In this document: piece after piece, positions 3,399 through 42,651 of the stretch
Numbering within the stretch: position 1 is the first letter of the stretch
Layout: every line of letters begins with the position of its first letter
DNA from: a virus
Strand: one strand, 5' to 3'
Length of the DNA stretch: 64,000 bases
IMG/VR virus record: IMGVR_UViG_3300021961_000050
Span: 24,225-88,224 of that record
Program-made: the position numbers and the translations under genes
The notes under the pieces: model-generated
The model's input: the letters and a program-made list of their open reading frames with translations, nothing else
Told to the model about the DNA's origin: nothing
The model's database searches: none

Positions 3399-5555
3399 AT
3401 GGCAATCAATCATAGATTAGGTACAAAAGTTAGTAAAAATCTTCGTCGTGAAGAAGCGTCTGCTACACGAATTGAACCATATCCGTACATAGGTATAGTT
3501 AAAAATAATCTTGATCCTTCACGTAGTGGCAGACTACAGGTATGGATTCCTGACCTAGGTGGTGATCCGCAAGATGCTCAAAACTGGCGTACTGTAAGTT
3601 ATGCTAGTCCATTTATGGGTACAACCACACATCCTATTAAGAATAATACTATTCCTAGTAAGTCTAATAAATTTGATACTGTAAGCCATACCTATGGCAT
3701 GTGGATGATACCTCCTGATCTTGACGTTGAAGTCATTGTAATATTTGTAGCAGGTGATCCTACTAGAGGGTATTGGATTGGTTGCGTTAATTCAAATGTT
3801 AGTAAACATATGACTCCCGGGGTTGCCGGCAGTACCAAATATGATATTTCTAATTCTTCGCCTGAAACACAAAAAGCAATTACAGCTCTAGAGCGGGCTA
3901 ATATACAACCACAACCTCCAGTGGTTGAGTTTAATGAGTACAACGAAAACGCATTTAAAAGCCAAGCATTTTATAATAATAAAAAACCCGTACACGAATA
4001 CCAATTTAAAAAATTAAGAGAGCAAGGTCTTGATTGTGATCCTTATAGAGGGGCAACTACCAGCAGTAGTCAACGTGAAACTCCTAGTAATGTTTTTGGT
4101 ATATCAACACCTGGAAGACCCTACAATGATCCTGCAGATGACACAGAATTAGTACAAAAGATTTTAGACGGTAAACTTAACGAAGACTTCTATAGATTTA
4201 ACACTAAAAAAGGCGGACATGTCTTTGTAATGGATGATGGGTCAATAACTGGTGCTGATCAAATGATTAGACTACGCACAGCCAATGGTCATCAAATAAC
4301 CATGCACGACTCAGCAGACATGTTGTATATTGCTCATGGCAGTGGTAACAGTTGGTTAGAAATGACCAGTAGTGGTAGTGTCAATGTTTACAGTAAAGGT
4401 AGCCTAAACATTAGATCTGAAACTAATATAAATCTACAGGCAGATAATAATGTCAACATTGAAGCAAAGAATAAAATAAACATCAGATCAACAAACAAAA
4501 CTCAGATGGATCTTGGAAGTTTTACTATGATAACAGCAGGAGCAATTAATCTTGCATCTAATGGTATAACCAATATCAAAAGCCAACAAGGATTCAACGT
4601 TGATGCTACAGGAGCAATATCTGTTCTAGCAGGTGGCAAACTAGCATTAACAGGTAGTCAAATTTTAGAAAACAGTGGCGGTGAAAAGAAACTTAAAATG
4701 CCTAAACAACTTGTGACTAATAAATTTCCTGATGTAGGTCTGAACAAAGATGTTGGACTATATGTGTCAACTCCTAACAGTTTTGACAGTGTGGTCACTG
4801 CGGCTCCTACACACGAACCATATGGTAGATTCCAACCTACTTGGTCACCAATTGACGCAGGTCGATTTGATGTTTCTGCTTATGCTACTAAAGAGAATTT
4901 AGATAAAACTGTACAGAAATTACCATCAGGTGAGTACACTGGATCAGTTGATGCTGTTAAAGATGCTAAAGGCACAGAAGTTAAAAATGCCGCAGGTGAT
5001 AAACAATTAAGAGTTCAACCTACGTCTAATCAAACATTAGGTCCATTAGAACCTGATGACATGACAGCCTACTACACACAGTTAGGACAGAGTGAAAGCA
5101 GTGGGGACTACACATCAACCAATGAGCTAGGCTATGTTGGTAAGTACCAAATGGGCCATAGTGCTCTAATAGACGCTGGACTAGTAAAATCATCAGTGAC
5201 CAGTAATGCTGATCTTAATAATCCAAATAATTGGTTAGGAAAAGATGGACAACCTGCTAGCCTAAATGAGTTTTTAAATACTCCACAAGCACAGGAAGAT
5301 GCTGTAAAACTTTACACACAGAAAAACTATAATACCTTGTTAAATAATGGTGGAATTACTAAAGAAATGTCAAAAGAAGAGATTGGCGGCATGCTTAGTA
5401 CTGCACACCTATTAGGTGCAACTGGTGCTAAAGATTGGCGTAATACAGGAGCAGGTGCAGATGCTAACGGAACTACAGGCACAGACTACTTCCAACGAGG
5501 TAAGTATGCTGTTAGTGTGTTAGGTCCTAAAGTGCCACAAATTAACGCTGGATAA
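3399..5555 (+). CDS. 5: gp5-like baseplate spike with C-terminal muramidase-like domain
   Basis: 718 residues. Residues about 25-140 form the OB-fold of gp5/VgrG spikes (YIGIVKNNLDPSRSGRLQVW, later GYWIGCV). Residues about 265-430 are short alternating hydrophobic/polar repeats with many N, S and K residues (SVNVYSKGSLNIRSE and similar), the signature of the intertwined triple beta-helix needle. Residues about 550-715 look like a lysozyme/transglycosylase-type domain: QSESSGDY (candidate catalytic E566), GYVGKYQMG and a helical tail with AHLLGATGAKDW. In T4 gp5 the lysozyme lies between OB-fold and helix; here that place is a linker and the enzyme-like domain is at the C-terminus. It would puncture the outer membrane and open peptidoglycan. 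RBS AGGAAA precedes the ATG. Confidence 0.8.
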   Translation: MAINHRLGTKVSKNLRREEASATRIEPYPYIGIVKNNLDPSRSGRLQVWIPDLGGDPQDAQNWRTVSYASPFMGTTTHPIKNNTIPSKSNKFDTVSHTYGMWMIPPDLDVEVIVIFVAGDPTRGYWIGCVNSNVSKHMTPGVAGSTKYDISNSSPETQKAITALERANIQPQPPVVEFNEYNENAFKSQAFYNNKKPVHEYQFKKLREQGLDCDPYRGATTSSSQRETPSNVFGISTPGRPYNDPADDTELVQKILDGKLNEDFYRFNTKKGGHVFVMDDGSITGADQMIRLRTANGHQITMHDSADMLYIAHGSGNSWLEMTSSGSVNVYSKGSLNIRSETNINLQADNNVNIEAKNKINIRSTNKTQMDLGSFTMITAGAINLASNGITNIKSQQGFNVDATGAISVLAGGKLALTGSQILENSGGEKKLKMPKQLVTNKFPDVGLNKDVGLYVSTPNSFDSVVTAAPTHEPYGRFQPTWSPIDAGRFDVSAYATKENLDKTVQKLPSGEYTGSVDAVKDAKGTEVKNAAGDKQLRVQPTSNQTLGPLEPDDMTAYYTQLGQSESSGDYTSTNELGYVGKYQMGHSALIDAGLVKSSVTSNADLNNPNNWLGKDGQPASLNEFLNTPQAQEDAVKLYTQKNYNTLLNNGGITKEMSKEEIGGMLSTAHLLGATGAKDWRNTGAGADANGTTGTDYFQRGKYAVSVLGPKVPQINAG

Positions 5556-5989: not shown

Positions 5990-8900
5990 ATGGCTATAAC
6001 TACAAGACAAACAAGTTTATTAGTTGCTGAAGACTGGACCAAAGTCTATCAAACTTTTCGTAATGCTGACTTTAAGAGTTATGACTATGAAACTCTAAGA
6101 AAGTCAATGGTTGATTATCTCAGGTTGTATTATCCTGAGGATTTCAATGACTTCATTGAATCAAGTGAATTTGTTGCATTGATTGACCTATTATCATTCT
6201 TAGGTCAAAGTTTGGCATTTAGAACTGATCTTAATTCACGTGAAAACTTTATTGACACAGCACAACGTCGTGACAGTATCTTAAAACTAGCAAGACTGAT
6301 CAGTTACAACCCTAAAAGAAATATACCAGCATCAGGTCTACTCAAATTTGACTCTGTGAGTACTACTGAAACAGTGTTTGACAGTACAGGATTAAATCTT
6401 GCTGGTTTAGTAGTTAATTGGGCTGATTCAGCCAACGACAATTGGCAAGAACAGTTTACTGCTATTATCAACGCTAGTCTTAATACTAATCAGGTTATTG
6501 GTAAACCAAGTAACACACAATTAATCAATGGTGTTACTAATGCTGAATATCAGGTTAATCTAATCCCTAATGTGATTGGTACTTATAGTTTTCAACCAAA
6601 CATTGAAAACGTGCCTATTACCTTTGAAGCAATAAGCCCTACTAGTTCAAATAGAACCTATATCTATGAAGCAGATCCAAGACCAAATAGATCATTTAAT
6701 CTTTTATATAAAAATGATAATCTTGGCAACAGCAGTAATAACACAGGTTTCTTTTTATATTTTAAACAAGGCGAACTTAAGAGTGTTGATTTAAATTTTA
6801 CTGAAAGTATTCCTAACAGAGTTTATAGTATCAATGTTGACAATATTAATAATAGTGACGTATGGTTATACAGTCTTGATTCATTGGGCAACGAAAGCAC
6901 ATTATGGGAACAGGTTCCTGCTGTTGGTGTTACCAATGTAATCTATAACAAAGGTACTAATAGAACAGTCTATCAGATCAATACCAGAGCCAACGATCAA
7001 ATTGATCTAGTATTTGGCGATGGTGCATTCGCCACAGTTCCTCAAGGACGGTATAGACTCTATTATAGAGTAAGTAATGGCCAACAGTACAAGATTACAC
7101 CCGATGAGATGCAATCTATAACTGTTCCTATTAATTATGTTAGTAAGACAGGTAGAATTGAAACATTAAATATAACTGCTAGTTTGCAATACACAGTGGC
7201 CAATGCGGCAACTAGAGAAACTATTGAGGATATTAGACAGAAAGCACCTCAACAATATTACACACAAGATCGTATGGTATCAGGTGAAGATTATAATATT
7301 CTGCCTTATACCTTGTTCAGCAACATACTTAAAGTTAAAGCAATTAACAGAACAAGTTCAGGTGTAAGTCGCTATCTGGACGTTATTGATACCACAGGTA
7401 AGTATTCTAGTACCAACGTGTTTGCCCAGGATGGTATGCTCTATCGCAATCCTACGATAACAACATTCAGTTTTGAATATAATACTAGAAATGATATCTA
7501 TAGAGTAATATTCAATCAAGTAAAACCAATTGTAGCAAAACAACAAACATTACAATTTTTCTATGCTTATTATCCTTTACTAGCAGTCAGTGACGGTTAC
7601 TGGCATAAATCAACAACCATTGCCAATGGTTGTACAGGATTTTTCGTCAACAGTCTTGATAGACCAATTCAGATAGGTGAAGGTGTAAGTAGTAACTATG
7701 GTTACATACTACCAAGAGCTATTGTTAAATTTTCTGCTGGTAGTGGTAATTACTTTGATTCTAAAAATAGAATACAATCAGGTACTCCGTCAAAAGATGG
7801 AGACAAGTATTATATCTATGCGGCAGTACAAGATCTTGTAGGCGACGGAACCAATGGAGGACTAGGAAATCTAAGTAATGGCTCAGGACCTGTAACCATT
7901 AACCAAAACGTTCCTGAAGGTGCTGTAGCACAGGAAGTGTTTGCTGTGTTTAACAATGAGTTTCCTACAGATTTAATCATTGAAATGATCAACTATATTG
8001 AAGCTTTCCAAGACTTTGGTCTAAGATATAACATGGAAACTTCAGCTTGGACTATCATTTATCCTGAAAATTTAAGTACAGCAGAGTTTAGCCTAACAAA
8101 TGCTGGCAACACCAGTGGCAATGGTCTAGACAGTAGTTGGACTATTATCTTCCAAACAGTAGAACAGACCTATAATGTGACTAGTAGAGGTCTTGAATAC
8201 ATATTTGAAAGTGTGAGAGAAACTAATTTTTATTTTGATAATGATGTTAAAATTTATGACCCAAAGACAGGATTAACAATTAGTGATCAGGTTAAAATTC
8301 TTAAAATCAATACGAAACCAGACGATATAGAAGCATTAGCTTTGGACTATCCATGGTTTATCTATGATAAGATCACTGAAGTTGATGGTTATGAGAATCC
8401 TAATAGAATTCAAGTAACATTCCCTGATACTGATAACGATGGTATTCCAGACAATCCAGAATTATTTGAACTCATAGTAGCACCTGATGTAAATTCACAA
8501 AACAAATATGTGTTTTTTGAAAATGTAGTTGGCTATGATAATTTTATCAACGAACAACCATATGACAATAACAGTGTGGTTACTGAGTATTCGTCATTGA
8601 GAGACATACAATCATCTGCTACATTATATACAGATGGTCAGATATTTTATGTACCAGATGATGACATATTTTATAAATTAACAGTCAATGGCGCAGTATA
8701 CACACTAACAGAACAAACAGAGTTTACAGCCAAAATTGGTCGTCAGGATATCTATTTTCAATATCGTCATAACTCCCCAAACTACAGACGTATTGATCCA
8801 AGTCCAAACAACATTATTGATCTTTACATATTAACCAAACAGTATGCTGACGATTATATTGCTTGGATACAGGATACATCAAATACTGTTAGTGAGCCAC

Positions 8901-9370
8901 AAATTCCAACAGGTGACGAATTAGAATTAGAGTTTAGTAAATTAGAAAAATATAAGAGTGTAAGTGACACAGTGATCTATAACCCTGCAAAATTTAAACC
9001 TATATTTGGTGCAGAAGCAGATCCTAGTCTTCAGGCAGTGTTTAAAGTTGTTAAGAATGCTAGTGTGGTGGTTAGTGACAATGATGTTAAGACTTCTGTG
9101 ATTGCGGCTATCAACAGTTATTTTGATATTGCCAATTGGGACTTTGGAGAAACATTTTATTTCAGTGAACTTAGTGCATACCTCCATAGTGTTCTAGCAC
9201 CAAACATAGCCAGTGTGATTATTGTACCGTCAAGTCAGTCTAGCAACTTTGGTAGTTTGATGCAGATCAATGCTGAATATAATGAAATCATTGTTAGTTC
9301 TGCAACAGTAGACAATGTACAAGTAATTGCGGCTATTACAGCGGCACAACTTAATCAAATATCTTTATAA
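5990..9370 (+). CDS. 6: Baseplate wedge protein gp6 (large form)
   Basis: 1126 residues, against about 660 in T4. The N-terminal half shows the gp6/gpJ-type baseplate core: YPEDFNDFIESSEFVALID, LAFRTDLNSRENF, AQRRDSILKLARLISYNP at residues 45-105, and further on KAPQQYYTQDRMVSGEDY, a region typical of the gp6 core that leads to the C-terminal domain. gp6 dimers close the inner ring of the baseplate and hold wedges together. The extra length in the second half (about residues 500-1000) is beta-rich and may be an added domain. Last residues are hydrophobic and helical. Its own late-type promoter box and RBS precede it; the next gene follows after 17 bases. Confidence 0.9.
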   Translation: MAITTRQTSLLVAEDWTKVYQTFRNADFKSYDYETLRKSMVDYLRLYYPEDFNDFIESSEFVALIDLLSFLGQSLAFRTDLNSRENFIDTAQRRDSILKLARLISYNPKRNIPASGLLKFDSVSTTETVFDSTGLNLAGLVVNWADSANDNWQEQFTAIINASLNTNQVIGKPSNTQLINGVTNAEYQVNLIPNVIGTYSFQPNIENVPITFEAISPTSSNRTYIYEADPRPNRSFNLLYKNDNLGNSSNNTGFFLYFKQGELKSVDLNFTESIPNRVYSINVDNINNSDVWLYSLDSLGNESTLWEQVPAVGVTNVIYNKGTNRTVYQINTRANDQIDLVFGDGAFATVPQGRYRLYYRVSNGQQYKITPDEMQSITVPINYVSKTGRIETLNITASLQYTVANAATRETIEDIRQKAPQQYYTQDRMVSGEDYNILPYTLFSNILKVKAINRTSSGVSRYLDVIDTTGKYSSTNVFAQDGMLYRNPTITTFSFEYNTRNDIYRVIFNQVKPIVAKQQTLQFFYAYYPLLAVSDGYWHKSTTIANGCTGFFVNSLDRPIQIGEGVSSNYGYILPRAIVKFSAGSGNYFDSKNRIQSGTPSKDGDKYYIYAAVQDLVGDGTNGGLGNLSNGSGPVTINQNVPEGAVAQEVFAVFNNEFPTDLIIEMINYIEAFQDFGLRYNMETSAWTIIYPENLSTAEFSLTNAGNTSGNGLDSSWTIIFQTVEQTYNVTSRGLEYIFESVRETNFYFDNDVKIYDPKTGLTISDQVKILKINTKPDDIEALALDYPWFIYDKITEVDGYENPNRIQVTFPDTDNDGIPDNPELFELIVAPDVNSQNKYVFFENVVGYDNFINEQPYDNNSVVTEYSSLRDIQSSATLYTDGQIFYVPDDDIFYKLTVNGAVYTLTEQTEFTAKIGRQDIYFQYRHNSPNYRRIDPSPNNIIDLYILTKQYADDYIAWIQDTSNTVSEPQIPTGDELELEFSKLEKYKSVSDTVIYNPAKFKPIFGAEADPSLQAVFKVVKNASVVVSDNDVKTSVIAAINSYFDIANWDFGETFYFSELSAYLHSVLAPNIASVIIVPSSQSSNFGSLMQINAEYNEIIVSSATVDNVQVIAAITAAQLNQISL

Positions 9371-9387: not shown

Positions 9388-12300
9388 ATGGCCGTAAGAA
9401 AGACTCTTAATTTATTACCAGGTATATTCCGTACTGATACAAATGAAAAATTTTTATCAGCAACCATTGATCAATTGGTTTCAGAACCAAATCTTACCAG
9501 AGTACACGGGTACATTGGAAGAAAGTTTGCTCCTACATATAAGAAAGGTGATAGTTACGTTACAGAGTCAAGTTTTAACAGACAAAACTATCAACTTGAA
9601 CCTAGTATAGTTGTTAAAGACAAAGAAGATAATGTTGAATTTTTTAGCAGTTATATTGATCTAATTAATCAGATCAAATATTATGGTGGTATTACAAACA
9701 ATCATAACAGACTGTTTGACAACGAATATTATACATTTGATCCACACATTTCTCTTGATAAACTAATTAATTTTACTCAGTACTATTGGTTGCCTAATGG
9801 CCCAGATCCAGTCAACGTAAGTACTGAAGGTGTTGACCTTACTAAAACATTCACCGTGACTAGAGATGCTAGTACCAATCAATACATTTTTGATGACAAC
9901 GGCACAATTACTAATAACATTACACTAGCACGTGGTGGTAGTTATGAATTTGTTTTAGATCAAACAGGTAATCCTTTTTGGATACAAACAGAATTAGGAG
10001 TTGATGGTAAATTAAATTCTACTCCAACTATTAGTTCTAGATCTGTGTTAGGCGTCACCAACAATGGTGCTGATTCAGGAACAGTGACATTTAATGTTCC
10101 ACAGTCTAATGCACAAGATAGATTTATTAAAATGGCATCAGTTTACAATGTAGACTATGCTACTCCATTGGCCTACTCAGAATTACACAATCGTTACCTA
10201 TCATCATTCTTAGAAGAATATCCACAATACGCTGGCATTACTGGCAATCTAGATGGAAAAACTTTAATTTTTATTGATGTAGAAACATTAATCAACCTTG
10301 GTGAACCTGCGTGGACTGCACCAACTGTAATAAATCCTGATGGTAATCCAGAACCAACCTTAGATGCAGGTGTAATAGTTCCAGATGCAGATCGTTACGG
10401 TGTGTGGAAAGTTGTATTTTCTTCTGGTGGTATTAATGATCCAATAATTAGATTAGTACCAGTACAATCAGTTGATATTAACGAAAAAGTTTTTATTAGA
10501 TATGGTGTACTCAATGCTAATAAAGAATATTACAAAGATTACGATGGTTTCTTTCATGAAGTGCCATTACTTTCTAGTACAAAAAATACGTTGTACATAC
10601 AAGATGAAAATGACACTGAAATTTATAAATCAATTAAAATTGTTGAACCAACAGGTTGGTCAATTGATGTTGACAATGACATCTTAGGAAAGAAAACATA
10701 CACCAGTCCAAATGGTATTGTGTTTACCAGTGGTCTTAAAATTAGATTTGGTACTGATGTTACTCCTAGTACCTATGCTGACAAAGAATATTATGTTGAA
10801 AACGTTGGTGATAGTATTAGATTAGTTGATGTTGAACTAATGGTCACTCCGGAGACTTATTTAGATGAGTTAGCTTTAAATTATCCTGATGAAATATTTC
10901 CTGACTATATTACTATTGTACGTGGTAGTATTGATCTTAATGCTTGGTCAAGAAACAATCGCTGGTTCCATCAGGACATTATTATAGCCACAGCAGGATA
11001 TAATAACACACCTATTGAATTAGATCAAAATGCTCGTGCTAAGAGACCTATTGTACAGTTTGAATCAAACCTAAAATTATTAAATTATGGTACCATTGGT
11101 AAAAGACAGATCAATATATTAGATACTACTACTGCTGACGCATTTAACGAGTTAGAAGGTAAAACATATACCATAGCAGTTGGTACAGAGTTATTTGACG
11201 GCATGCGTATTCTATTTGCCGCTGATAATGACCCATTGGTAAGAGATAAGATTTATGTTATTAATTTAGTACAATATGAAGCAGACCCAGTTACTGGATT
11301 GCCTACTGGCGATTATCATATTAAATTAACTATTGCTGATGATGGTGATGCTGATGTCAATGACAGTGTAGTAGTCACAGATGGTCCATATAAAGGATCC
11401 CAATGGTGGTATGACGGTAACCAATGGTATGAAGCACAACAAAAAACAGGATTGAATCAAGCACCATTGTTTGATGTATTTGATTTAAATGACAATAGCC
11501 TAACAACATATTCACGATCAACTTTTGCAGGTAGTAAGATATTTGGCTATAAAGTTAATACTGCTAACACTGCTGACCCAATACTTGGGTTTGGATTAAG
11601 TTATAGATCCTTTACCACTCAAGGTGACATTGAATTTACTAACTTCTTCGATACTGATACGTTTGAGTATACCAATGGACAAGATGTTATCGTAGATTCT
11701 ATAGCTCAAGGATTCTTACATAAAATTACAGGTAGAGAAACATACTTAATAAAAAATGTTTGGCAAACTGTAGTTGAACCAAGCAAACAATACCAATTAA
11801 TTGAATTTACCTATGATGAATACAACTATCCTTTTGTATTAGATATTACTCCACGTGCCGAACAAACAACCCCAAATGTTAAAGTTTTTTTAAATAATCA
11901 ATTATTAAAATCAACACAGTGGACTTTAAGTTCTAATAGAGAGTTGACTTTAACACCAACACTCAATGCTGGTGATAAAATTATAGTAGCTGTCTTTAGT
12001 GATCAGGTTAGTAAATTAGGGCACTATGAAGTTCCTAGCAATCTAAACCTAAATGCACAAAATATTGATCTAGACACATTAACGTTAGGTCAAATGAGAA
12101 ACCACTTAGTGGCTTTGAGTGAAAATAGTAAAGAATTAGATGGCAATGTACTTGGTGCAAGTAATCTTAGAGATATAGAACTAAAAGCACAAGGTGGTAA
12201 TATTCTTCAACACAGTGCCCCTGTGCCATATTCAGCATTGTTCTTGCTAGATAAAGAAGCAAATTTTGTTAACAGTGTCAGACTAGCACAACAAGAATAT

Positions 12301-15300
12301 TCAAAATTTAAATATAAATTCTTAGAACTTAGTTCAACTCTTTCAGGAGTTGACCCAACTGATCCTGTGGCCACTGTTGATTTGATTCTAACAGAAATTA
12401 ATAAAATTAAAAATGCAACTTTCCCTTGGTATTACAGTGACATGGTACCATATGGTCCATTAAAAACTATTGTAGCAGATGTTGGGTATACTATCTTTGA
12501 TCCATTGGTTAGATCATATGAAATTATTAATGTGTTTAATAATAGATTGTTAAGTAACCAGGCAATTTTAGTTTACCTCAATGGAGTTCAGTTAGTAATT
12601 GATAAGGACTATTACTTTAATCAAGATCGTCCTGCAGTTACAATAAATGAAACAGTGACTCTTGAAGTAGATGATATATTAACCATAGTTGAATATTCAA
12701 ACACTGACGGTAACTATATACCTGAAACACCAACCAAGTTAGGACTTTATCCTAAGTTTATTCCAGAAGTATTTGAAGATGATACCTATAGAACTCCAGT
12801 AATTGTGATTAGAGGGCACGACGGAAGTCTAACTCCTGCATTTGGTGATTATAGAGATGACGTATTATTAGAATTAGAAAAACGTATCTATAATAATATT
12901 AAAGTACCAATGCAACTCAGCTTTGAAGATATCTATAATGTACTGCCAGGTAGATTTAGAGACAATGATTATACTATCAATGAAGCAAACAGAATATTGT
13001 CTAAAGGATTTTTGAATTGGATTGGTAATAACAAAATTGATTTCTCAGAAAATGTAACATTCAAAAACAATGACGCATTTACTTGGAATTACTCAGGTGT
13101 GCCTGATAGATTAGATGGCAGTGACCTGCCAGGTAGTTGGAGAGCCTGTTATCAATATTTTTATGATACAGATGCACCAAATACACGTCCATGGGAAATG
13201 TTAGGATTTAGTATCAAACCAGACTGGTGGGAAGGTTATTATGGACCTGCACCTTACACTGGTGGTAATGCTTTATTATGGGAAGATCTTGAACAAGGTC
13301 GTATTGTAGACGGTGATCGTGCCGGTATTGATCCTTTATTTGCTAGACCTGGTCTTACTACTATTATTCCTGTAGATGCCAATGGTGGGCTAATACCACC
13401 AAGCAGTATCTTATGTAGAAATCTTAGAGCATCATCAGCTAGCAAGTCCTGGACAATAGGTGAACAAGGTCCTGCTGAAATTGCATGGCGCCGTTCAAGT
13501 GAATTTCCTTATGCTGTACAGATTGCTATGGCGTTGGCTAAACCAGGAAAATATTTTGGTCTAAACATTGACATTGACGACTATAGAAAAAATAATGAAT
13601 TAGGACAATTTATTAATAGTAATTCTCATCATATTAGACAAACTGATGTAAGTTACAACGGGTACTTAAATTCAGAAAATTCAATCTATAGAACTGCTAG
13701 TTATCTTAACTGGATAGCAGATCAATTAATTAATTTAGGTATAGATCCTTCTGCTAGATTATCATTGCTAGTTCAACGTTATCAAGTCCAATTAGCCTAT
13801 AAGATGGCAGGGTTCAGCGATCATAGATTCCTGCAGGTTCTAGCTGAGCAAAGTTCGCCATCAAGTACTAATGAAAGTATTGTTATACCAGATGAAAACT
13901 ATGATATTCATCTTTACAAATCAACACCAGTTGACAGGCTAGTCTACAGTGCTGTGATTGTTGAAAAAACAGACAGTGGATATACAGTAAAAGGTTATGA
14001 TGTATCTAATCCTTATTTTACTATCATCCCAAGTGTGGTTAATAGTAATGCTAGAAAAATTAAAGTTCTTGATAAAGAAGGTGTAGTATATCTAGACTAC
14101 CAACCAATTAAACTTACAGTGCCTTATGGCTATGAATTTAAAACACTTCAGCAGACTGTAGATTTCTTAATTAGTTACGAAAGATACTTAATGTCACAGG
14201 GTTTTACTTTTAACAAGATAGAAGAAGAGCTTGGTGAAATTAAAAACTGGAAATTGTCAGTCAAGGAATTGTTATTCTGGGCTCAACAAGGTTGGAATTC
14301 AGGTAGCATTCTAGTACTAAGTCCTATATCAAATTCTATTGCTGTTAGTACCATTGGGGCTATTGTTGACGAAGTGTCGGATAGGCAGTACGAGTCAAGA
14401 GTAGTTGACCAAAACTTTAAATTGATCAAACGTAACAAATATAATATCACACGTTCGCCTGAAGAGTTTACTCTAACTTTAACTGATGCAAATAGCATAG
14501 TAGGTTATATAGAATTAAATCTTGTTCAATATGAACACACTTTGATATTTGACAATTCTACAGTGTTCAATGACATTATTTACAAACCTGAATTAGGTAG
14601 TAGACAGTACCGTTTGAAACTTATTGGTCAAAAGACAGGTGATTGGAATGGTAGTATGTATGCTCCTGGCTTCATATATGGCAGTGCTGTAACACAGACA
14701 TGGAATTCAGGAAAAGACTATCTCAAAGGAGACATAGTCAAATATAAAGATCAATTATTTGTAGCATTGAATAATGTACCAGCAACTGCGGAATTTGATT
14801 TTACTAAATGGAAATTGTCTGACGCTGGGCAATTTAATAAAGGATTACTTACAAACTTTTCAAGTAACGCCACAAGATCAAAATCATATTATGATTCTAA
14901 AGGTTACTTCCAAGATCAAAATCAGTTACAGTACAGTCATGGTTTGATTGGTTTTAAACCCAGACAATATTTGTCAGACATTGGCTTAGATGAAAGTACA
15001 CAGATTGAATTCTATAAAGGCTATATCAAACAAAAAGGTACAGCAAACAGTATTGAAGCTTTGACTAATGCTCAGTTTAGTAATCTAGATAGTCAAATTA
15101 ATTTTTATGAAGAATGGGCTATACGTGTTGGAGAATATGGCGCATTGGATACTAACCCTTACATTGAAATTGTATTAGATGAAAAAGAGTTTGGGGTTAA
15201 TCCTGCTAGGGCAGAATTTTTAACAGCAGAAGATGCAGGTCTAGCAGATGGATTGACTAAGTTTAGTAAAACTGAACTATATAGAACTGCTGAAAGTTTC

Positions 15301-18300
15301 TCAGGATATATAGCACTTAACCGTACGGACGAAAGTGACTATGATAATGATATACCAACAGCTGGTTATGTTAATATTGATGATGTTGATACAACTATAT
15401 TTGATCTAACAAACTATCAAGAACTTAATAGTAAGATAGATGAAATAGGCACAGGTTATAGAATTTGGGTAGCAAAAAATTTCAGTCAAGAATGGGACGT
15501 TTTACGTGTTACAGAAACTGATAACAATGTTATTGGTGTAAAAAATGATCTAGACGGGTTCGTAACATTTACATTTGAACAACCACATGGTTTAGAAAAA
15601 GAAGAACTATTCTTCCTTAAACAATTTATAACAGAGTTTAATGGATTTTATCGTGCTTATAAGATTGTTGATCTTAACAGCATCATGGTTGAGTACGCAG
15701 GTGATACTACAAACCTAACATCAATTGATGGTCGCGGCTTATTGTTTAAATTAGATAGTATGCGATTTTCCTTTATGGAAGACAGTCGTGTGTACGGATT
15801 AACTAATCCAAAACACGGTTGGAAGATTGGTGATAAGATTTGGATTGATACTGACGCGGCAACTAGCCTTGTACAAGGTCAGCCCGTTAACACTGTACAA
15901 AATACTTGGAAAGTTTATGAAAAACAACACCCGTGGTCATTGAAATCAGGCATTTCTAAACCAGTTGGTTTGCAATCTAATGCAGATACCTACGGTAGTT
16001 CAGTTAGAATGAGTTATGATCTGTCTACTATTGCTGTGGGTGGAGAAACTGCATCTAGATATGACGTTATCACTGATACAACAACAGCAGGAGTTGGCGA
16101 GGTTAATCTATTTGTTAGAAACTATGACAACGAATATGAACACTCAGTGGTTATAAGTCCATCAACAGGTAATACATACGAGTTTGGATCATTTGTTGAC
16201 TTTGCTATTGATAGATTAGGTGTAGGTTCTCCAGGCAGTGAGTCAGATTTAGGTTTTGTACATATCTACAATAGACCTGAAGGGCAGGCTGGTTGGAATA
16301 TTGGTCAGGTTGTTGTAGGTAATGTTGCTTCTACAGGTGACAGATTTGGATCATCTATATCATTTGATGAATCAGGTCGTTGGTTATATGTTGGTGCTCC
16401 TGGCAATGATCTGGTCTATGTCTACGGATTAGATGAAACCATAGAACTTGAATCTGGAACGGTACTACCTGACGGTGTAGACGTTAATGTGGCAATACCA
16501 TTTACTCCACAGATCACAGACGATGCAGATTCACTATTAGTTAAAAATAAAAATACCACCTTTGTTCCAAACATTGACTATGTAGTCGATGGCGGTAATA
16601 TTCAATTTAATTTTGTTCCACCAGTAATTGAACTAGACATTATCCAACAACCTTACTATGTTTATGTTGACACACTTACGGGAAATGCAAGTAGTGAGTT
16701 TGGTTACTTTATGGATTCAAGTTTAGATGGTGCACAGTTAGGTATTGGTGTACCAAATGATCCAGTGACAGTTAACGAAACAGTTGATAAGATAAAACAT
16801 GGTAGAACATATACTATTGTGTCTAATGTAAGTACAGATTTTACCACAGTTGGTGCGGCCAACAATATAGTTGGTACAACCTTTGTTGCCAATACTACCA
16901 GTTTGGTTGGAGCATTCACAGGTGATGGAACAGTTTCTACAGTATATGCTGGTGCAGGGTCAGTACACGTTTATGATCGTGTAATTGAGGCATTTGATAG
17001 TACTGACAGCACTGACTATGTTGTTACAGGAACCATTGGTAGAATTTATAGAGTACTAGTTGATGACATAGAAGTTGATAGAAGTAGATATTCTATTGTT
17101 GGATCTAACACTGTTAGATTTATCACACCATTGGGTGTGGGCAAAGTTGTCTATGTAGAAACTAATGAATTTAATTTGCTTGAGCTATTAACTGGTACCA
17201 TAGTACAAGAAGGTGCAAGATTTGGAACAAGTCTAACAATCTGTTCTAACAACTGTGCGATCTATGTAGGTGCACCATATTATGACAATGGCTCATCATA
17301 TAACACAGGATCAGTGTTTAAATTCCATCACAGAGGAAGATTATATGGTACTAACACAGGTAGTATACAAGATCCTACCTTTGTACCAAACGACACAATA
17401 CGTTTAGATAACTTTGAAGTTAAAGTCAAACTTAGACTCAGTGAAACAGTCACAGTATCAGAAGGTGATTTTATCACACAGTCTAGTTCAGGTGCTAATG
17501 TTACTGTTACAGCAGACTCGCCTACTGGTGGTTCAGTAACAGTTTCAATATCTGATTATAACAATGCTAATGTGTTCACACTAGGATCTGGCGTGGTTTC
17601 AATCAATGGAACACCCACAACTGCTTATCCAAGAAGAACTACACTTGACGAATGGGTAGAAGATATCAACAGTGCTAACTTATTAGGTATCACTGCTGTT
17701 AACGAACACGGATACTTTAGATTAAACTCTGATAGAACTGTGGCTAAAAATTTATTAAGAACTCTGTCAGGCAGAAATGTAACAGGCAGTGATGGAGTAT
17801 ATGCTGATTCAGGTATGGCTGTATTTGCTGAAATGCAGATCATCTTAAGTACATTTAACACCCCAGGGGAATTCTTTGGTACCAATGTTATTCTAGCTCG
17901 CAACGCTTACATGTTGGTCATATCAACAGGCAAAGGTACAACTAAACGTTACATGACTTTTGATGTTAACGAAACAGTATTTGATGATGAATCCACAACA
18001 TTTACTGATCAAGTCAAAGGCGGCGGCAGTGTCTATATCTATGAGTTATACGATGATCCTAGAGACGCTGTAGAAGATCCAGGACGCTATGCCTATGCTC
18101 AACAGTTAGATCCAGAAGAACTTAATCCTGGTGATGAATTTGGTCATGCTATTGACATTGTGGGCAATTATATTATGGCCACAGCACCCAATGATGACAC
18201 CAATACATATTTAGAGCTATCAGGTAACATCACAGTAGCGGCAGGTGATGTTATCACTCAACCAACAGCTGGCCTTGATGAATTTACCGCTTACTACAGT

Positions 18301-21300
18301 GTTGAAGAAGGAAATCGTATAGGTATAATCAACTATAGTAGTCAACAGATACTAACTGGTTCGTCAGACACATTATATGTTAATGGTGTAGACAGTGGGG
18401 TTTATCCTACAGATATATCAGATAATACAGGTAAAGTCTATCTATTTGAAAATCTAACAGGTGGTCGTGGTTGGAAATTAATTAGTTATGAAACACCTAA
18501 GGTGGATATAGATTCTATCAATCGTATGTATATGTACGACAAGGTTTCAAATACTATTCTAGCTAACATGGAATTTATTGATCCTGTTAAAGGTAAAATA
18601 ATGGGTCAAGCTGAACAAGAAATTAGCTATAAAACAGAATATGACCCAGCTGTCTATAACATGGGCAGTAGAAGATACAATGGTGATTTACATTGGGGAG
18701 CAGAACAGGTTGGTCGTGTTTGGTGGAATCTGAACAAGGTTAGATTCTTAGATTATGAACAAGGTTCATTGACCTATAGAAGTATTAATTGGGGTCGTTT
18801 CTTCCCAGGATCAGTAATTGAAGTTGCTGAATGGGTTGAAAGTACAGTACCACCAAGTCAATATGATATTGTGGTTAACGATGGAACTCCATTGTATCCA
18901 GATGACAGTGCTTATGTTCGCACAATCTATGTAGATACATCTGGAGTTATTACTAACAAATATTATTATTGGGTAATTAACAAACCAAGTTTAGATAAAG
19001 TAAACTCAGACAGAAAATTACCAGTGACTACAATTAAAACCTTAATTGAAAATCCAAAAAGTTCTGGAGTACCTTATGCGGCTGTGATTCACAATCAAGC
19101 TCTGATAGTGTACAATGCGTCAAACTATCTATCAGCTTCGGATACAGTGTTACACGTTGATTATGAATTAATCAAAAATTCAAATATTATTCACAGTGAG
19201 TATGAGTTAGTACAGAAAAACAATGGACAAAGTAGAGTTGCTCCAAAAGTCATTGATAAGATGATTGACAGTCTTGCAGGACTTGATATTCTTGGTCGTG
19301 TGGTTCCTGATCCAAAACTTAGTGTTGCAGACAGATACGGTATCAGCGTAAGACCTAGACAGTCAATGTTCAAAGATAGATTTGAAGCCATGAAGAATTT
19401 AGTTGGCTACGTTAATAATATTTTTGCAAGTAATCCTATAGCAAAACAATATAGACTTGATAGACTATTAGATAAAGAAAAAGAACCAAACTTTAAATTA
19501 AATGAGTATAATCAACGAGTTGACTCTGATGAAGAATTAACTTACATAGACACAGAAGTATTAAATCCTGGGTATAAAGTTCTAGTTACCAGCAGTGTAC
19601 AAAATGATGGCCTATGGACATTAAATGAGCTCAGCGAAGATAAAGAATGGATTTTAGTTCGCATTCAAAGTTATGACACCACACTCTATTGGGAATATCA
19701 AGATTGGTATGCTAAAGGTTACGATCAAAATACCAAGACAACCTACGTTGCGGAATCTAACGTAGAAGCACTGAAATTATCATATGGTGTAGGTGACGTT
19801 ATTAGAATAGCTAACTCAGGCAACGGTGAATGGCAAATGGTTGTTGTTAATTCCAGCTCTGAGTTTGAATTAGTTGGTATACAAAATGGTACAATTAAAC
19901 TGTTAGACATTTTGGCAGACTTTACAGATACCAATCTTGGTTTTGGTAATTCAGGGTATGATCTTGGTCGCTATGCACAGAGCCCAAACATTGAAATTAG
20001 AAATATTCTAAATGCTCTACGTTACGATATTTTTACAGGTACACTAACAGACGAAACTAACAAGTTATTCTTTGTTATGATGAACTATGCTCTTAGTGAG
20101 CAGAAATATATTGATTGGATATTCAAAACCAGTTTTGTTAGTATAGCACATAGATTAAGAAATCTTGATCAGTTACCTAACTATATCAGAGATAATCAAA
20201 GTTATTATCAAGACTACATCAATGAAGTAAAACCTTATAAAACTAAGATTAGAGAATATCTTGTATCATATGACAGCTTTGATCAATTTGAAGGTTCAGT
20301 AACTGATTTTGATCTGCCAGCATATTATGACACACAAGACAGACTGTTTAGATCTCCAAGTGGAGAACAAGCAGAAAAAGATTCTCAACTTTGGCAACAA
20401 GATCAGTATTCACAATGGTATGGTAACAGAACACTGTTCATTGAAAGTATTCTTGTAGAAGATGGTGGAAGTGATTACACAGAAATACCTACAGTTACTA
20501 TTGTTGGTAATGGATCAGGAGCAGAAGCTCATGCAGTTATCAATGGTGATACTGGTGCTATTACCAGCATTGTTGTTGATAAGCCAGGAAGTGGATACAC
20601 ATTTACTCCTACTGTGATCATCAATGGTAATGGTACAGGAGCCAAGGCCTATGCAGTACTTAAAAATACTCAAGTACGAGGCATTTCAACCACAATGAAA
20701 TTTGATAGAATTACTTATTCATCAACTGTTCAGGAATGGGCTACAAATTCCTACTACAATGAAGGTGACATAGTAAGTTATCAAGGACAAGGATATCGTG
20801 TTCTGGCAAATATTACCACTGGATTAGTATTCACAAGCAGTGACTATGAATTATATTCATCTGAATTGTTTACTAATGCCAATGACCGTATTATGGCTTA
20901 CTATGACCCACAAAACGGTCAACCTGCCAAAGACTTAAAATTATTAGTTCCAGGGGTTGAATATCCTGGAGTTCAAGTTACAGGTCTTCCATTTACTAGA
21001 CAGCCTGGATTCAATGGATCAGCTCTGGCAAATTTAATAGTGAATTCAAGTGTAACAGTGGCCATTGGTGATGTGATTACTCAAACAGTACCTGATGTTG
21101 CTCTTTATCTATCTAGTTCTGTAAGTGTTACTGAGGGCGATTTCCTAACCCAAGGTAATGCTAATATCACAGTGTTAACTACTAGTTCAGATACCATGGA
21201 GATATTTGGTAATTACAACTCAGTTGTTGAGTTTGATGTAGAAGAAACAGCTAATGTATTCATTAATGGTGTAGAACAAGAAATTACTACATTTGATTAT

Positions 21301-22935
21301 TATTCTACAACTTGGAGTAATGTTGGTATTACTACTGCTAACATTATGACTCTGTCAGAACCAATGCTAACTGTTTCATCAGCATCTAGTGGACTAATAA
21401 TTGTTGGTATATTAGACAGCACTGCTGATTTTGAAACCGGTACTAATATTAAGATCAATGGATCTGAAGTAGCATCTGAATTTGTAGATATTGAATATAG
21501 ATCATTGATTACAGATACACCATACGATTCAACAACCTACGACGCTGTAGAATATGACGAAGATGGTAATCCAATTTTGTCTACTGCTACAGTAGATACT
21601 GTGATTAGAAGTACCTATGCCGACACAGCTTTGGGAACCCGTCCAGAAGATATTGATGTTGTAGGCGGAGCCTACGTAGACACATACTCAAGTCATGCAC
21701 CTGAAGAACTAATTCCGGGTGTAATGTTTGAAACACTTGATATGAAAATTTACACCAACCTAGCAAGTAGTGGAAATGTTGATATTGCTGGTTATAGAAT
21801 ATTCTACAACATGAGGGGTGAAGAAACATATCTAAGAATTTCTGATAGTTATACTACCATGTTAACACAGGAACTAGCATTAACAGACACAGTGATACAT
21901 GTTGGTGATGCATCTAAAATGCCAGCACCAAATCCAGCTGGTGCTATTCCTGGCGCAGTCTTTATCAATGGTGAGAGAATTACTTACTTTGTAAGAGATT
22001 TAACAAACAATACACTAGGTCAGATTAGAAGAGGCACTTGGGGAACAGGTGCTCCTGAACTACATCCATATGGTACTTACGTTGTTGATGGCGGACTTGA
22101 TCAAATAGTACCTGGTGTTGAAATTGGTAATGTAGAAATTACTGCTAATACATCATTGACAGCAACTACTACAAAAACACATAAATTTAGAGTTTTAGGA
22201 AATCTAACTGTTGATCCTGGAGACTTTATCACTGTGCCTGCTAGTGGATCTAATGTAATGGTTGTAGGTAAGAGTTTTGATGAAGAAGAAGTGATAGACA
22301 TTGTAAAAATTACAGAACCACCAACACTTGATGAATTTGCAACTGTTGAAATAGTACTCAGTGCTGAAACAACCATCTATGGACCAACGGCCTACTTTAC
22401 AGAAGAAACTACAGGTGCTAACGTATTGGTATTTAATCCAGGAAGTCGCACAGACACTTTCCAAGGAAAATATGCCCCATTGAACCCTACTGGTACAGAA
22501 TCATTGGTTGCCAATGTTGGTAATATATTAATCAACGGTGTAGATTCAGGACTAACTGCTGTCAGTGTAGACGAAATACCACCAGTTGGTTATGAAATTG
22601 AAGTTAATGGGTCTAGTTTATCATCCAATGTTTACGCTCTTGCAGTGTCATTGTCAGGTGACGTTGGAGTGCATCAAGTTAGAACTGATGGTGAAGTAAA
22701 TGTCTACGTTGGTAATGTTTTCCAAACTGCTAATGCCTTAAGTTGGTACAATGCTGGTGATGGGGTGTACACAACTACAGATGGTACAGGATTAGAAGGG
22801 TCAACAACAATGGCCGCTGAATTTATTAAGGAACAACCTGCAATCTTTAATCAAGGTCTGGTGTTAGAAAGAACGGTAAATATATTTGACAATCCATTGA
22901 TTACTGAAGACAGTGAGATAATTATTGAGGAATAG
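9388..22935 (+). CDS. Giant baseplate/tail structural protein with FG-GAP-like propeller
   Basis: 4515 residues, a fifth of the window. The N-terminus (KTLNLLPGIFRTDTNEKFLS, then VHGYIGRKFAPTY) matches what I know as a conserved start of very large baseplate-associated proteins of marine T4-like phages that lie after gp6, where T4 has gp7 and gp8. Residues about 2200-2940 contain seven FG-GAP-like units (YGSSVRMS, FGSFVDFA, FGSSISFD, FGYFMDSS, FGTSLTIC, FGTNVILA, FGHAIDIV), each followed by a short strand such as LYVGAPG. A G-D-F/V-I/L-T-Q repeat recurs at residues about 2690, 2950, 3893, 3916 and 4277. Residues about 3689-3760 hold a GSGYT-type tandem pair. The C-terminal part resembles fibre or adhesin modules. 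Role in wedge structure plus receptor contact is inferred. RBS GGATAGG precedes the ATG. Confidence 0.75.
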   Translation: MAVRKTLNLLPGIFRTDTNEKFLSATIDQLVSEPNLTRVHGYIGRKFAPTYKKGDSYVTESSFNRQNYQLEPSIVVKDKEDNVEFFSSYIDLINQIKYYGGITNNHNRLFDNEYYTFDPHISLDKLINFTQYYWLPNGPDPVNVSTEGVDLTKTFTVTRDASTNQYIFDDNGTITNNITLARGGSYEFVLDQTGNPFWIQTELGVDGKLNSTPTISSRSVLGVTNNGADSGTVTFNVPQSNAQDRFIKMASVYNVDYATPLAYSELHNRYLSSFLEEYPQYAGITGNLDGKTLIFIDVETLINLGEPAWTAPTVINPDGNPEPTLDAGVIVPDADRYGVWKVVFSSGGINDPIIRLVPVQSVDINEKVFIRYGVLNANKEYYKDYDGFFHEVPLLSSTKNTLYIQDENDTEIYKSIKIVEPTGWSIDVDNDILGKKTYTSPNGIVFTSGLKIRFGTDVTPSTYADKEYYVENVGDSIRLVDVELMVTPETYLDELALNYPDEIFPDYITIVRGSIDLNAWSRNNRWFHQDIIIATAGYNNTPIELDQNARAKRPIVQFESNLKLLNYGTIGKRQINILDTTTADAFNELEGKTYTIAVGTELFDGMRILFAADNDPLVRDKIYVINLVQYEADPVTGLPTGDYHIKLTIADDGDADVNDSVVVTDGPYKGSQWWYDGNQWYEAQQKTGLNQAPLFDVFDLNDNSLTTYSRSTFAGSKIFGYKVNTANTADPILGFGLSYRSFTTQGDIEFTNFFDTDTFEYTNGQDVIVDSIAQGFLHKITGRETYLIKNVWQTVVEPSKQYQLIEFTYDEYNYPFVLDITPRAEQTTPNVKVFLNNQLLKSTQWTLSSNRELTLTPTLNAGDKIIVAVFSDQVSKLGHYEVPSNLNLNAQNIDLDTLTLGQMRNHLVALSENSKELDGNVLGASNLRDIELKAQGGNILQHSAPVPYSALFLLDKEANFVNSVRLAQQEYSKFKYKFLELSSTLSGVDPTDPVATVDLILTEINKIKNATFPWYYSDMVPYGPLKTIVADVGYTIFDPLVRSYEIINVFNNRLLSNQAILVYLNGVQLVIDKDYYFNQDRPAVTINETVTLEVDDILTIVEYSNTDGNYIPETPTKLGLYPKFIPEVFEDDTYRTPVIVIRGHDGSLTPAFGDYRDDVLLELEKRIYNNIKVPMQLSFEDIYNVLPGRFRDNDYTINEANRILSKGFLNWIGNNKIDFSENVTFKNNDAFTWNYSGVPDRLDGSDLPGSWRACYQYFYDTDAPNTRPWEMLGFSIKPDWWEGYYGPAPYTGGNALLWEDLEQGRIVDGDRAGIDPLFARPGLTTIIPVDANGGLIPPSSILCRNLRASSASKSWTIGEQGPAEIAWRRSSEFPYAVQIAMALAKPGKYFGLNIDIDDYRKNNELGQFINSNSHHIRQTDVSYNGYLNSENSIYRTASYLNWIADQLINLGIDPSARLSLLVQRYQVQLAYKMAGFSDHRFLQVLAEQSSPSSTNESIVIPDENYDIHLYKSTPVDRLVYSAVIVEKTDSGYTVKGYDVSNPYFTIIPSVVNSNARKIKVLDKEGVVYLDYQPIKLTVPYGYEFKTLQQTVDFLISYERYLMSQGFTFNKIEEELGEIKNWKLSVKELLFWAQQGWNSGSILVLSPISNSIAVSTIGAIVDEVSDRQYESRVVDQNFKLIKRNKYNITRSPEEFTLTLTDANSIVGYIELNLVQYEHTLIFDNSTVFNDIIYKPELGSRQYRLKLIGQKTGDWNGSMYAPGFIYGSAVTQTWNSGKDYLKGDIVKYKDQLFVALNNVPATAEFDFTKWKLSDAGQFNKGLLTNFSSNATRSKSYYDSKGYFQDQNQLQYSHGLIGFKPRQYLSDIGLDESTQIEFYKGYIKQKGTANSIEALTNAQFSNLDSQINFYEEWAIRVGEYGALDTNPYIEIVLDEKEFGVNPARAEFLTAEDAGLADGLTKFSKTELYRTAESFSGYIALNRTDESDYDNDIPTAGYVNIDDVDTTIFDLTNYQELNSKIDEIGTGYRIWVAKNFSQEWDVLRVTETDNNVIGVKNDLDGFVTFTFEQPHGLEKEELFFLKQFITEFNGFYRAYKIVDLNSIMVEYAGDTTNLTSIDGRGLLFKLDSMRFSFMEDSRVYGLTNPKHGWKIGDKIWIDTDAATSLVQGQPVNTVQNTWKVYEKQHPWSLKSGISKPVGLQSNADTYGSSVRMSYDLSTIAVGGETASRYDVITDTTTAGVGEVNLFVRNYDNEYEHSVVISPSTGNTYEFGSFVDFAIDRLGVGSPGSESDLGFVHIYNRPEGQAGWNIGQVVVGNVASTGDRFGSSISFDESGRWLYVGAPGNDLVYVYGLDETIELESGTVLPDGVDVNVAIPFTPQITDDADSLLVKNKNTTFVPNIDYVVDGGNIQFNFVPPVIELDIIQQPYYVYVDTLTGNASSEFGYFMDSSLDGAQLGIGVPNDPVTVNETVDKIKHGRTYTIVSNVSTDFTTVGAANNIVGTTFVANTTSLVGAFTGDGTVSTVYAGAGSVHVYDRVIEAFDSTDSTDYVVTGTIGRIYRVLVDDIEVDRSRYSIVGSNTVRFITPLGVGKVVYVETNEFNLLELLTGTIVQEGARFGTSLTICSNNCAIYVGAPYYDNGSSYNTGSVFKFHHRGRLYGTNTGSIQDPTFVPNDTIRLDNFEVKVKLRLSETVTVSEGDFITQSSSGANVTVTADSPTGGSVTVSISDYNNANVFTLGSGVVSINGTPTTAYPRRTTLDEWVEDINSANLLGITAVNEHGYFRLNSDRTVAKNLLRTLSGRNVTGSDGVYADSGMAVFAEMQIILSTFNTPGEFFGTNVILARNAYMLVISTGKGTTKRYMTFDVNETVFDDESTTFTDQVKGGGSVYIYELYDDPRDAVEDPGRYAYAQQLDPEELNPGDEFGHAIDIVGNYIMATAPNDDTNTYLELSGNITVAAGDVITQPTAGLDEFTAYYSVEEGNRIGIINYSSQQILTGSSDTLYVNGVDSGVYPTDISDNTGKVYLFENLTGGRGWKLISYETPKVDIDSINRMYMYDKVSNTILANMEFIDPVKGKIMGQAEQEISYKTEYDPAVYNMGSRRYNGDLHWGAEQVGRVWWNLNKVRFLDYEQGSLTYRSINWGRFFPGSVIEVAEWVESTVPPSQYDIVVNDGTPLYPDDSAYVRTIYVDTSGVITNKYYYWVINKPSLDKVNSDRKLPVTTIKTLIENPKSSGVPYAAVIHNQALIVYNASNYLSASDTVLHVDYELIKNSNIIHSEYELVQKNNGQSRVAPKVIDKMIDSLAGLDILGRVVPDPKLSVADRYGISVRPRQSMFKDRFEAMKNLVGYVNNIFASNPIAKQYRLDRLLDKEKEPNFKLNEYNQRVDSDEELTYIDTEVLNPGYKVLVTSSVQNDGLWTLNELSEDKEWILVRIQSYDTTLYWEYQDWYAKGYDQNTKTTYVAESNVEALKLSYGVGDVIRIANSGNGEWQMVVVNSSSEFELVGIQNGTIKLLDILADFTDTNLGFGNSGYDLGRYAQSPNIEIRNILNALRYDIFTGTLTDETNKLFFVMMNYALSEQKYIDWIFKTSFVSIAHRLRNLDQLPNYIRDNQSYYQDYINEVKPYKTKIREYLVSYDSFDQFEGSVTDFDLPAYYDTQDRLFRSPSGEQAEKDSQLWQQDQYSQWYGNRTLFIESILVEDGGSDYTEIPTVTIVGNGSGAEAHAVINGDTGAITSIVVDKPGSGYTFTPTVIINGNGTGAKAYAVLKNTQVRGISTTMKFDRITYSSTVQEWATNSYYNEGDIVSYQGQGYRVLANITTGLVFTSSDYELYSSELFTNANDRIMAYYDPQNGQPAKDLKLLVPGVEYPGVQVTGLPFTRQPGFNGSALANLIVNSSVTVAIGDVITQTVPDVALYLSSSVSVTEGDFLTQGNANITVLTTSSDTMEIFGNYNSVVEFDVEETANVFINGVEQEITTFDYYSTTWSNVGITTANIMTLSEPMLTVSSASSGLIIVGILDSTADFETGTNIKINGSEVASEFVDIEYRSLITDTPYDSTTYDAVEYDEDGNPILSTATVDTVIRSTYADTALGTRPEDIDVVGGAYVDTYSSHAPEELIPGVMFETLDMKIYTNLASSGNVDIAGYRIFYNMRGEETYLRISDSYTTMLTQELALTDTVIHVGDASKMPAPNPAGAIPGAVFINGERITYFVRDLTNNTLGQIRRGTWGTGAPELHPYGTYVVDGGLDQIVPGVEIGNVEITANTSLTATTTKTHKFRVLGNLTVDPGDFITVPASGSNVMVVGKSFDEEEVIDIVKITEPPTLDEFATVEIVLSAETTIYGPTAYFTEETTGANVLVFNPGSRTDTFQGKYAPLNPTGTESLVANVGNILINGVDSGLTAVSVDEIPPVGYEIEVNGSSLSSNVYALAVSLSGDVGVHQVRTDGEVNVYVGNVFQTANALSWYNAGDGVYTTTDGTGLEGSTTMAAEFIKEQPAIFNQGLVLERTVNIFDNPLITEDSEIIIEE

Positions 22936-34005: not shown

Positions 34006-34744
34006 ACTGTTTACCTTTGGTTGTAGTTTTACAAAATATTGTTGGCCAACTTGGGCTGACATCTTAGCACAATCAGCTGAGCATTATGAAAACTGGGCAA
34101 CTCCTGGTGGAGGCAATCAATACATTTTTAACAGTTTGATAGAATGTCATAAACGAAATAGTCTGACTGCCAACGACACCGTAATTATAATGTGGACCAG
34201 TATCAGTCGTGAAGATAGATATATTAGAGACAAAGGATGGTTAACACCTGGTAGTATCTTCAATCAAACAGACTATGATAAAAATTTTGTAAAAAATCTA
34301 GCAGATCCATATGGTTATTTGATTAGAGATCTAGCAATCATATCAGCTACACGCATGATATTAGATCAAATTGGATGCCAATGGCACTTTTTATCAATGG
34401 TACCTATAGAATATCATGATGACAGTACATATTTTAAGAAAGATCTAAAGATTACAAAAGAAATTAAAGATTTATATCAGATAGAACTTGATCTGATTAA
34501 ACCTAGTGTGTTTGACACAGTGTTTAATGGGGATTGGTCCAGCAGAAAACATCTAAAACCACAGGTTGATGATAATCACCCTACGCCTGGTGAACATTTA
34601 ATTTACTTAAATACAATACTGCCTCAATATAATATTAGTAATGACACAGTTAATTTGGTTAAGTTGAGCGACCAAATTGTATTAGACAATCTGCCATTTG
34701 ATTGGCAGGGTTGGAAATTAAATCAATTAGGAATGAGATTCTAA
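33998..34744 (+). CDS. SGNH/GDSL-type hydrolase-like protein
   Basis: 248 residues from the ATG at 33998, chosen because it places the nucleophile motif near the N-terminus (LFTFGCSFTKY) and overlaps the previous stop by only eight bases. Block GGGNQYIFNSL supplies the glycine/asparagine oxyanion signature (block III type), TVIIMWTSISREDRY follows, and DNHPTPGEHL near residue 190 gives the expected D-x-H pair. The family removes or transfers acyl groups, often acetyl on sugars. Two similar but diverged proteins occur at 42648 and 62084. Confidence 0.7.
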   Translation: MDRLFTFGCSFTKYCWPTWADILAQSAEHYENWATPGGGNQYIFNSLIECHKRNSLTANDTVIIMWTSISREDRYIRDKGWLTPGSIFNQTDYDKNFVKNLADPYGYLIRDLAIISATRMILDQIGCQWHFLSMVPIEYHDDSTYFKKDLKITKEIKDLYQIELDLIKPSVFDTVFNGDWSSRKHLKPQVDDNHPTPGEHLIYLNTILPQYNISNDTVNLVKLSDQIVLDNLPFDWQGWKLNQLGMRF

Positions 34745-36138: not shown

Positions 36139-36277
36139 CAATACCTGCCCAGCATTTTTTAATGACGCTACAATAGATCCTTCTGGTTCTTATAGTCCTT
36201 GTACTGCTTTAGGCGGTGGAGCATTTAAATTTCCTAATAAAACATTTAAAGAATTTAGTAAACTTTTAGATATTTAA
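36122..36277 (+). CDS. 51-residue orphan of the N-terminal SPASM-like module
   Basis: Short frame from the ATG at 36122 to TAA at 36277, overlapping the end of the previous gene by 17 bases and stopping four bases before the next ATG. Residues 9-27 (CPAFFNDATIDPSGSYSPC) match the N-terminal pattern of the neighbouring radical SAM proteins (C-x-x-P-W then D-G-x-x-x-P-C), and KTFKEFSKLL matches the following helix. It ends before the CxxC and the radical SAM core. It is either a remnant of a deleted radical SAM gene or a stand-alone mini-domain. A peptide substrate of the neighbouring enzymes is a further, weaker possibility. GGAGTG lies upstream of the ATG. Confidence 0.5.
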   Translation: MQKIHDNTCPAFFNDATIDPSGSYSPCTALGGGAFKFPNKTFKEFSKLLDI

Positions 36278-36281
36278 GAGA

Positions 36282-42553: not shown

Positions 42554-42651
42554 AGTGGTTAAAGAAAATAATTGAAAGAATTAAATTAGAAATCAGATAC
42601 AGAAAACGTCTGAGAGAACTTAAAAAGAAAGATCCATTTATCTATAAATGA
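42550..42651 (+). CDS. Small basic helical peptide (33 residues)
   Basis: ATG at 42550 overlaps the previous stop by four bases, with AAGGAGAA upstream, and the stop overlaps the next ATG by four. The 33 residues are almost one amphipathic basic helix (MKWLKKIIERIKLEI, then RYRKRLRELKKK) ending in DPFIYK. Very small basic proteins ending this way occur in marine T4-like phages as far as I recall. Overlaps on both sides and a good ribosome binding site make it a real gene in spite of its size. Function unknown; the charge suggests RNA or membrane binding. Confidence 0.6.
   Translation: MKWLKKIIERIKLEIRYRKRLRELKKKDPFIYK

Follow-up and report, generated by a model that had tools for sequence, protein, structure and literature searches.

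The window, as we call the whole stretch of 64,000 nucleotides analysed here, is part of a record of 88,224 bases from an uncultured large virus of bacteria. The locus under study comprises two genes:

5990 to 9370 (+): gp6-type baseplate wedge subunit, used as synteny anchor (phrog_10646, 1002 bits, and phrog_219, baseplate wedge subunit)
9388 to 22935 (+): giant virion/baseplate protein in the gp7 position (phrog_10938; gene order after gp6)

The second ORF encodes 4515 amino acids, the length given in the initial annotation, and was matched by the phrog_10938 'virion structural protein' profile in three stretches (1232 bits, E 0). Homologues of this giant protein were found in the cultured jumbo phages PA5oct, Atu_ph07, Phosso, Salicola SCTP-2, GAP32 and Vibrio 2.275.O, and in most of them the preceding gene is annotated as a baseplate wedge protein, which is the same gp6-then-giant order as in the window. 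An ESI-MS/MS note is attached to the database entry of the PA5oct homologue. The description as a baseplate protein, also proposed in the initial annotation, is thus supported by the gene order after gp6 and by the detection of a relative in virions. In T4, gene 7 lies directly after gp6, in the same place as the giant gene. By hhalign, T4 gp7 showed no similarity to the three conserved regions of the giant protein (probability 0.1-0.5%), and there was no solved gp7 among the PDB matches of the profile searches with the giant protein; homology to T4 gp7 was rejected at the sequence level on these results. Given that the gene order matches and the sequence does not, we use 'gp7' as the name of a position only. 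By analogy with T4 gp7, six copies of the protein would be expected per virion, with a place in the baseplate.

Elsewhere in the giant protein, CBM_5_12 stretches were found in the Pfam search. A small module at residues ~3680-3772 (window ~20425-20703) matches phrog_460 (head closure) and phrog_1922, and many copies of such a module are present in giant proteins of Atu_ph07, Phosso and S-MbCM6. At 34702-41505 (+), 42648-44748 (+) and 46513-48592 (-) of the window there are five consecutive radical SAM ORFs, two of them with SPASM domains, and then a DUF6071 protein, a Nol-like carbamoyltransferase, an aminotransferase and a sugar-nucleotide epimerase; this region is a possible phage-borne cluster for glycan or small-molecule synthesis.

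The feature of interest lies in the middle of the giant protein. The initial annotation had placed it at 15990-18220, a span that proved too short, since the domain runs from about 15901 to about 18507 and blade 7 ends beyond 18220. Its parts are as follows:

15901 to 15936 (+): first strand of the scaffold hairpin and propeller start, residues 2172-2183, NTWKVYEKQHPW (89% mean family conservation)
15937 to 16143 (+): blade 1 region, YG 2202, without DxDxDG and without GAP proline
16144 to 16308 (+): blade 2, FG 2266, GVGSP (FG-unit scan, conservation)
16309 to 16425 (+): blade 3 strands A-C, FG 2320, YVGAP (best Pfam FG-GAP_2 stretch, 2312-2342)
16426 to 16662 (+): insert separating blades 3 and 4, probably in the C-D loop of blade 3 (occupancy 1.00 in the 32 near relatives counted)
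16663 to 16776 (+): blade 3 outer strand and blade 4 strands A-B, FG 2438, GIGVP (FG-unit scan)
16777 to 16923 (+): 'KIK' module within blade 4, residues 2464-2512 (occupancy 0.15 in relatives)
16924 to 16974 (+): blade 4 strand C, GAGSVHVY (family alignment)
16975 to 17142 (+): insert separating blades 4 and 5 (near relatives: occupancy 0.97)
17143 to 17325 (+): blade 5, FG 2612, YVGAP (mean conservation 0.79 over 2586-2640, among the highest of the domain)
17326 to 17817 (+): insert between blades 5 and 6, with a GDxITQ module at residues 2682-2762 (17431-17673; module search)
17818 to 18132 (+): blade 6, FG 2830, without GAP proline (FG-unit scan)
18133 to 18213 (+): blade 7 strands A-B, FG 2918, ATAP (FG-unit scan)
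18214 to 18429 (+): GDxITQ module within blade 7, residues 2943-3014 (module HMM 6e-17, occupancy 0.07)
18430 to 18507 (+): blade 7 last strand GKVYLF, then the scaffold strand that returns, GWKLISYETPKVD (agrees with W..IR.E.P.VD in homologues lacking the propeller)

The seven FG-type units occur in order at residues 2202 (YG), 2266, 2320, 2438, 2612, 2830 and 2918 (FG), as had been read initially. Taken alone, the FG/YG dipeptides are at chance level (9 seen, 8.8 expected). Complete FG...GxP units number five in 921 amino acids and none elsewhere in the giant protein, and five were attained in 1 of 20,000 shuffles. Comparison with relatives gives stronger evidence. A profile-guided scan of IMG/VR gave 64 loci, and among 37 aligned segments each of the seven positions retains an FG, YG or LG pair in 35-37 rows. 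The Pfam family FG-GAP_2 (PF14312) reached 27.5 bits over the whole giant protein against a cut-off of 23, with two stretches passing and single stretches scoring just 19-20 bits each, the best being residues 2312-2342. When a profile of 36 relatives was searched against PDB sequences, integrin alpha chains came out on top (alpha-6, E 5e-7), with further matches to integrin alpha-4, alpha-M and alpha-IIb; a weak match to PHIST was set aside as chance. A tblastn search of 50,697 phage records with the window domain returned nothing at 1e-5, unlike a compact relative, which as query did reach cultured phages.

A proline of the GAP/Cage type follows in five of the seven blades with a spacing of 14-16 and is missing from blades 1 and 6, which qualifies the initial reading of a VGAP-like strand after every unit. 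Many integrin repeats have this proline 13-20 residues past the FG glycine (PMC3192720). In calcium-binding alpha-integrin propellers a DxDxDG loop is located between strands A and B in several blades (PMC3192720, PMC8023676), and the bacterial propellers described in PMC3192720 also have such loops. The search for calcium-binding loops, suggested in the initial annotation, gave a negative answer: DxDxDG is absent from the whole window domain, and isolated matches were seen in segments of two relatives only. Judged by its sequence, the window domain is not assigned to the calcium-binding integrin-type propellers.

Structure prediction was carried out for residues 2151-3071 with AlphaFold2 (pLDDT 75.8, pTM 0.75). 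Residues 31-882 of the model could be aligned by VIA-align with complete integrin alpha propellers, among them integrin alpha-M 9t3y (Z 35.5, 2.6 Å over 355 residues) and the propeller-only integrin chain 4wk2 (Z 33.5, 370 of 448 residues, chain range 1-452), and also with the seven-bladed WD40 ring 6tbl_F (Z 33.8, 329 of 336 residues). The raw TM-scores of this model in Foldseek were low, which we attribute to the inserts, and matches to SF3b in the same program were set aside as chance. A distant relative (L078) has the domain in compact form, and its model, built from a separate alignment, gave a best match to integrin propellers with Z 31.5 over 366 residues and a Foldseek match to them at 3e-15. 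Both models agree with the seven-bladed ring that had been anticipated from the sequence, and closure of the predicted ring is well supported by the alignment to entire rings.

The ring is interrupted by five inserts. Those between blades 3-4, 4-5 and 5-6 had been recognised in the initial annotation, which overlooked two others, the KIK module inside blade 4 and the GDxITQ module inside blade 7. A compact clade is devoid of large inserts at 3-4, 4-5 and 5-6, whereas almost every close relative of the window contains the full set of three. The KIK (occupancy 0.15) and blade 7 GDxITQ (0.07) modules are rare in relatives, with a similar copy of KIK in one locus only (L061). We take three of the inserts to be old and two to be young. 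The GDxITQ module is a beta module of ~76 residues; a single giant protein can contain as many as eight matches to it, both in loops of the propeller and close to the C-terminus. It shifts place among relatives, as if it were mobile, and no match was found in the six cultured homologues examined. In the giant protein of the window its copies are at residues 2682-2762, 2942-3014, ~3885-3979, 4271-4301 and 4334-4391 (window ~17431-22560).

The cultured homologues also suggest how the propeller may be seated. No propeller or FG-GAP match was detected at the equivalent place in PA5oct, Atu_ph07, Phosso, Salicola SCTP-2, GAP32 or Vibrio 2.275.O. The similarity between the window protein and the cultured giants stops at ~1944-2078 and restarts at ~2962-3039, or right after the propeller in another search. 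In the place of the propeller, PA5oct, Salicola SCTP-2, Atu_ph07 and Phosso have a short beta-hairpin with the pattern W.V ... W..I..E.P.VD or near it; in the alignment, GAP32 and Vibrio 2.275.O showed no recognisable form of the motif. The propeller of the window is bordered by NTWKVYEKQHPW on one side and by GWKLISYETPKVD on the other; these correspond to the hairpin strands, the former resembling the W.V strand of the four homologues. As these four have a short hairpin turn where the propeller would be, the region looks like a domain insertion into that turn, as far as a short alignment motif can tell. The 1500 extra residues of Atu_ph07 and Phosso, considered as occupants of the same slot, were dropped, as they are located upstream of the hairpin. 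In a tree of the downstream flanking region the sequences with the propeller group together (95/98) and those without it form a second group, the tree being unrooted and several cultured sequences having long branches. A single gain of the propeller is the simplest reading and is favoured by this tree; a single loss may also be compatible with it, given that it is unrooted.

Taking these results together, we consider it probable that residues ~2172-3040 form an FG-GAP seven-bladed propeller devoid of calcium sites, acting as a binding module displayed on the wedge protein in the gp7 position. In the mechanism that we propose, the propeller would be seated in the beta-hairpin turn of the giant wedge protein of a jumbo myophage; its two ends would meet at the hairpin, and the ring could for that reason be added without disturbing the scaffold. 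Later its loops would have taken up further beta modules, three of them old and two young. Its most likely function would be that of a binding module at the baseplate rim. Conservation is highest in blades 5-6 and where the 5-6 insert begins (0.79-0.83) and lowest in blades 1-2 (0.50-0.57), and from this contrast in the sequences we propose a docked and an exposed side: blades 5-6 together with the 5-6 insert, as the conserved side, would pack onto other parts of the baseplate, and the variable blades 1-2 and the added modules would point outward and help to grip a ligand on the host surface. The conservation of blades 5-6 could also stem from folding and not from docking.

The same contrast bears on the main rival, in which the propeller is purely structural and docks tail fibres or braces adjacent wedges with no contact to the host. 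Such a role would fit blades 5-6 and their insert being the best conserved parts, as well as the gp7 position of the giant protein next to gp6; moreover, the nozzle protein of phage T7 is a structural propeller. It is harder to reconcile with the strong variation of blades 1-2 and of several inserts and with their acquisition of young modules, and cultured relatives do without the propeller, which is therefore not required for baseplate assembly as such. We regard a purely structural role as a serious but less probable explanation. An enzyme acting on host polysaccharide, that is, a propeller-type glycanase or lyase, could be imagined, considering that the same supercluster has some propeller families with lyase members (PMC8023676); nevertheless, the top sequence and fold matches are all to non-enzymatic integrin alpha chains and no enzyme domain was found in the giant protein by Pfam, so that we hold this to be very improbable. 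Least credible of all is that a beta-rich filler with no ring closure contains the FG units as chance or decayed repeats, for although the FG dipeptides are at chance frequency and the GAP proline is missing from two blades, the seven positions are kept in nearly all relatives, integrins are matched by profile, and two models from different alignments gave Z values of 35.5 and 31.5. Returning to the binding module, attachment to the host surface is its most likely role, and the binding of a host sugar or protein, as put forward in the initial annotation, is plausible. The CBM_5_12 stretches in other parts of the giant protein count in favour of the binding module. The propeller probably grips the host surface or another part of the tail and is apparently a plug-in addition.

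The best-known role of integrin-type propellers is that of ligand-binding head in adhesion receptors of animals, including humans. The propeller of the window shares with the integrin alpha propeller (alpha-M 9t3y, alpha-6 7ceb) the seven blades, the FG-GAP/Cage-type units and the fold of the whole ring, and similarity at the profile level extends to integrin alpha-6, alpha-4, alpha-M and alpha-IIb. It differs in having no DxDxDG loops, the Cage proline in five of seven blades and five inserted modules, and in being embedded in a structural protein, with ~16-18% identity in the aligned part. In bacteria the role of integrin-type propellers has been called unknown (PMC3192720). No description of an integrin-type propeller in phage baseplates was found in the open-licence papers searched, and a jumbo phage review makes no mention of propellers. 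The baseplate propeller is a concrete place where an integrin-type domain may serve host attachment.

A beta-propeller in a baseplate protein for host recognition occurs in the receptor-binding protein of Staphylococcus phage phi11 (PMC4901313). That propeller is of a different kind and belongs to a separate receptor-binding protein of a siphophage.

Phage FG-GAP proteins are already known, and many giant-virus and phage FG-GAP proteins with similar folds are present in BFVD; what is new here is the embedding, the absence of calcium sites and the nested modules. S-TIM5 gp054, the FG-GAP protein of Vibrio phage nt-1 and a protein of S-MbCM6 have tandem FG-GAP repeats like the window propeller. 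The first of these, annotated as a virion structural protein, and the nt-1 protein are ~400 amino acids long, unlike the giant of the window. In Sinorhizobium phage Phosso a second giant protein (gene 108, L080:1-10769) has FG-GAP-like matches, in a genome region other than that of the gp6-linked giant. The 7022-residue virion protein of Synechococcus phage S-MbCM6 (L106:10780-31848) lies directly after gp6, as the window giant does, and a run of FG-GAP units is found near its residues 4450-4760. Its scaffold has no detectable sequence similarity to the core of the window giant; homology of the two scaffolds was sought and not found, the common matches being confined to the repeated small module (window protein residues ~3685-3767) and the FG-GAP part. 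Because of this lack of similarity, a gp6-adjacent giant with FG-GAP units may have arisen twice, in the window lineage and in S-MbCM6. More tentatively, the gp7-position protein of jumbo myophages might be a docking frame with an exchangeable slot, into which one lineage plugged an entire integrin-type adhesion propeller that in its turn served as a frame for mobile beta modules nested within it, unrelated cyanophages having reached the same arrangement independently.

Among the closest known counterparts are the phrog_10938 giants of PA5oct, Atu_ph07, GAP32 and other jumbo phages. They are homologous to the window protein in the N-terminal, central and downstream regions and have the same order after gp6; unlike the window protein, they contain neither an FG-GAP match nor a propeller, and these propeller-less relatives offer a natural before/after comparison.
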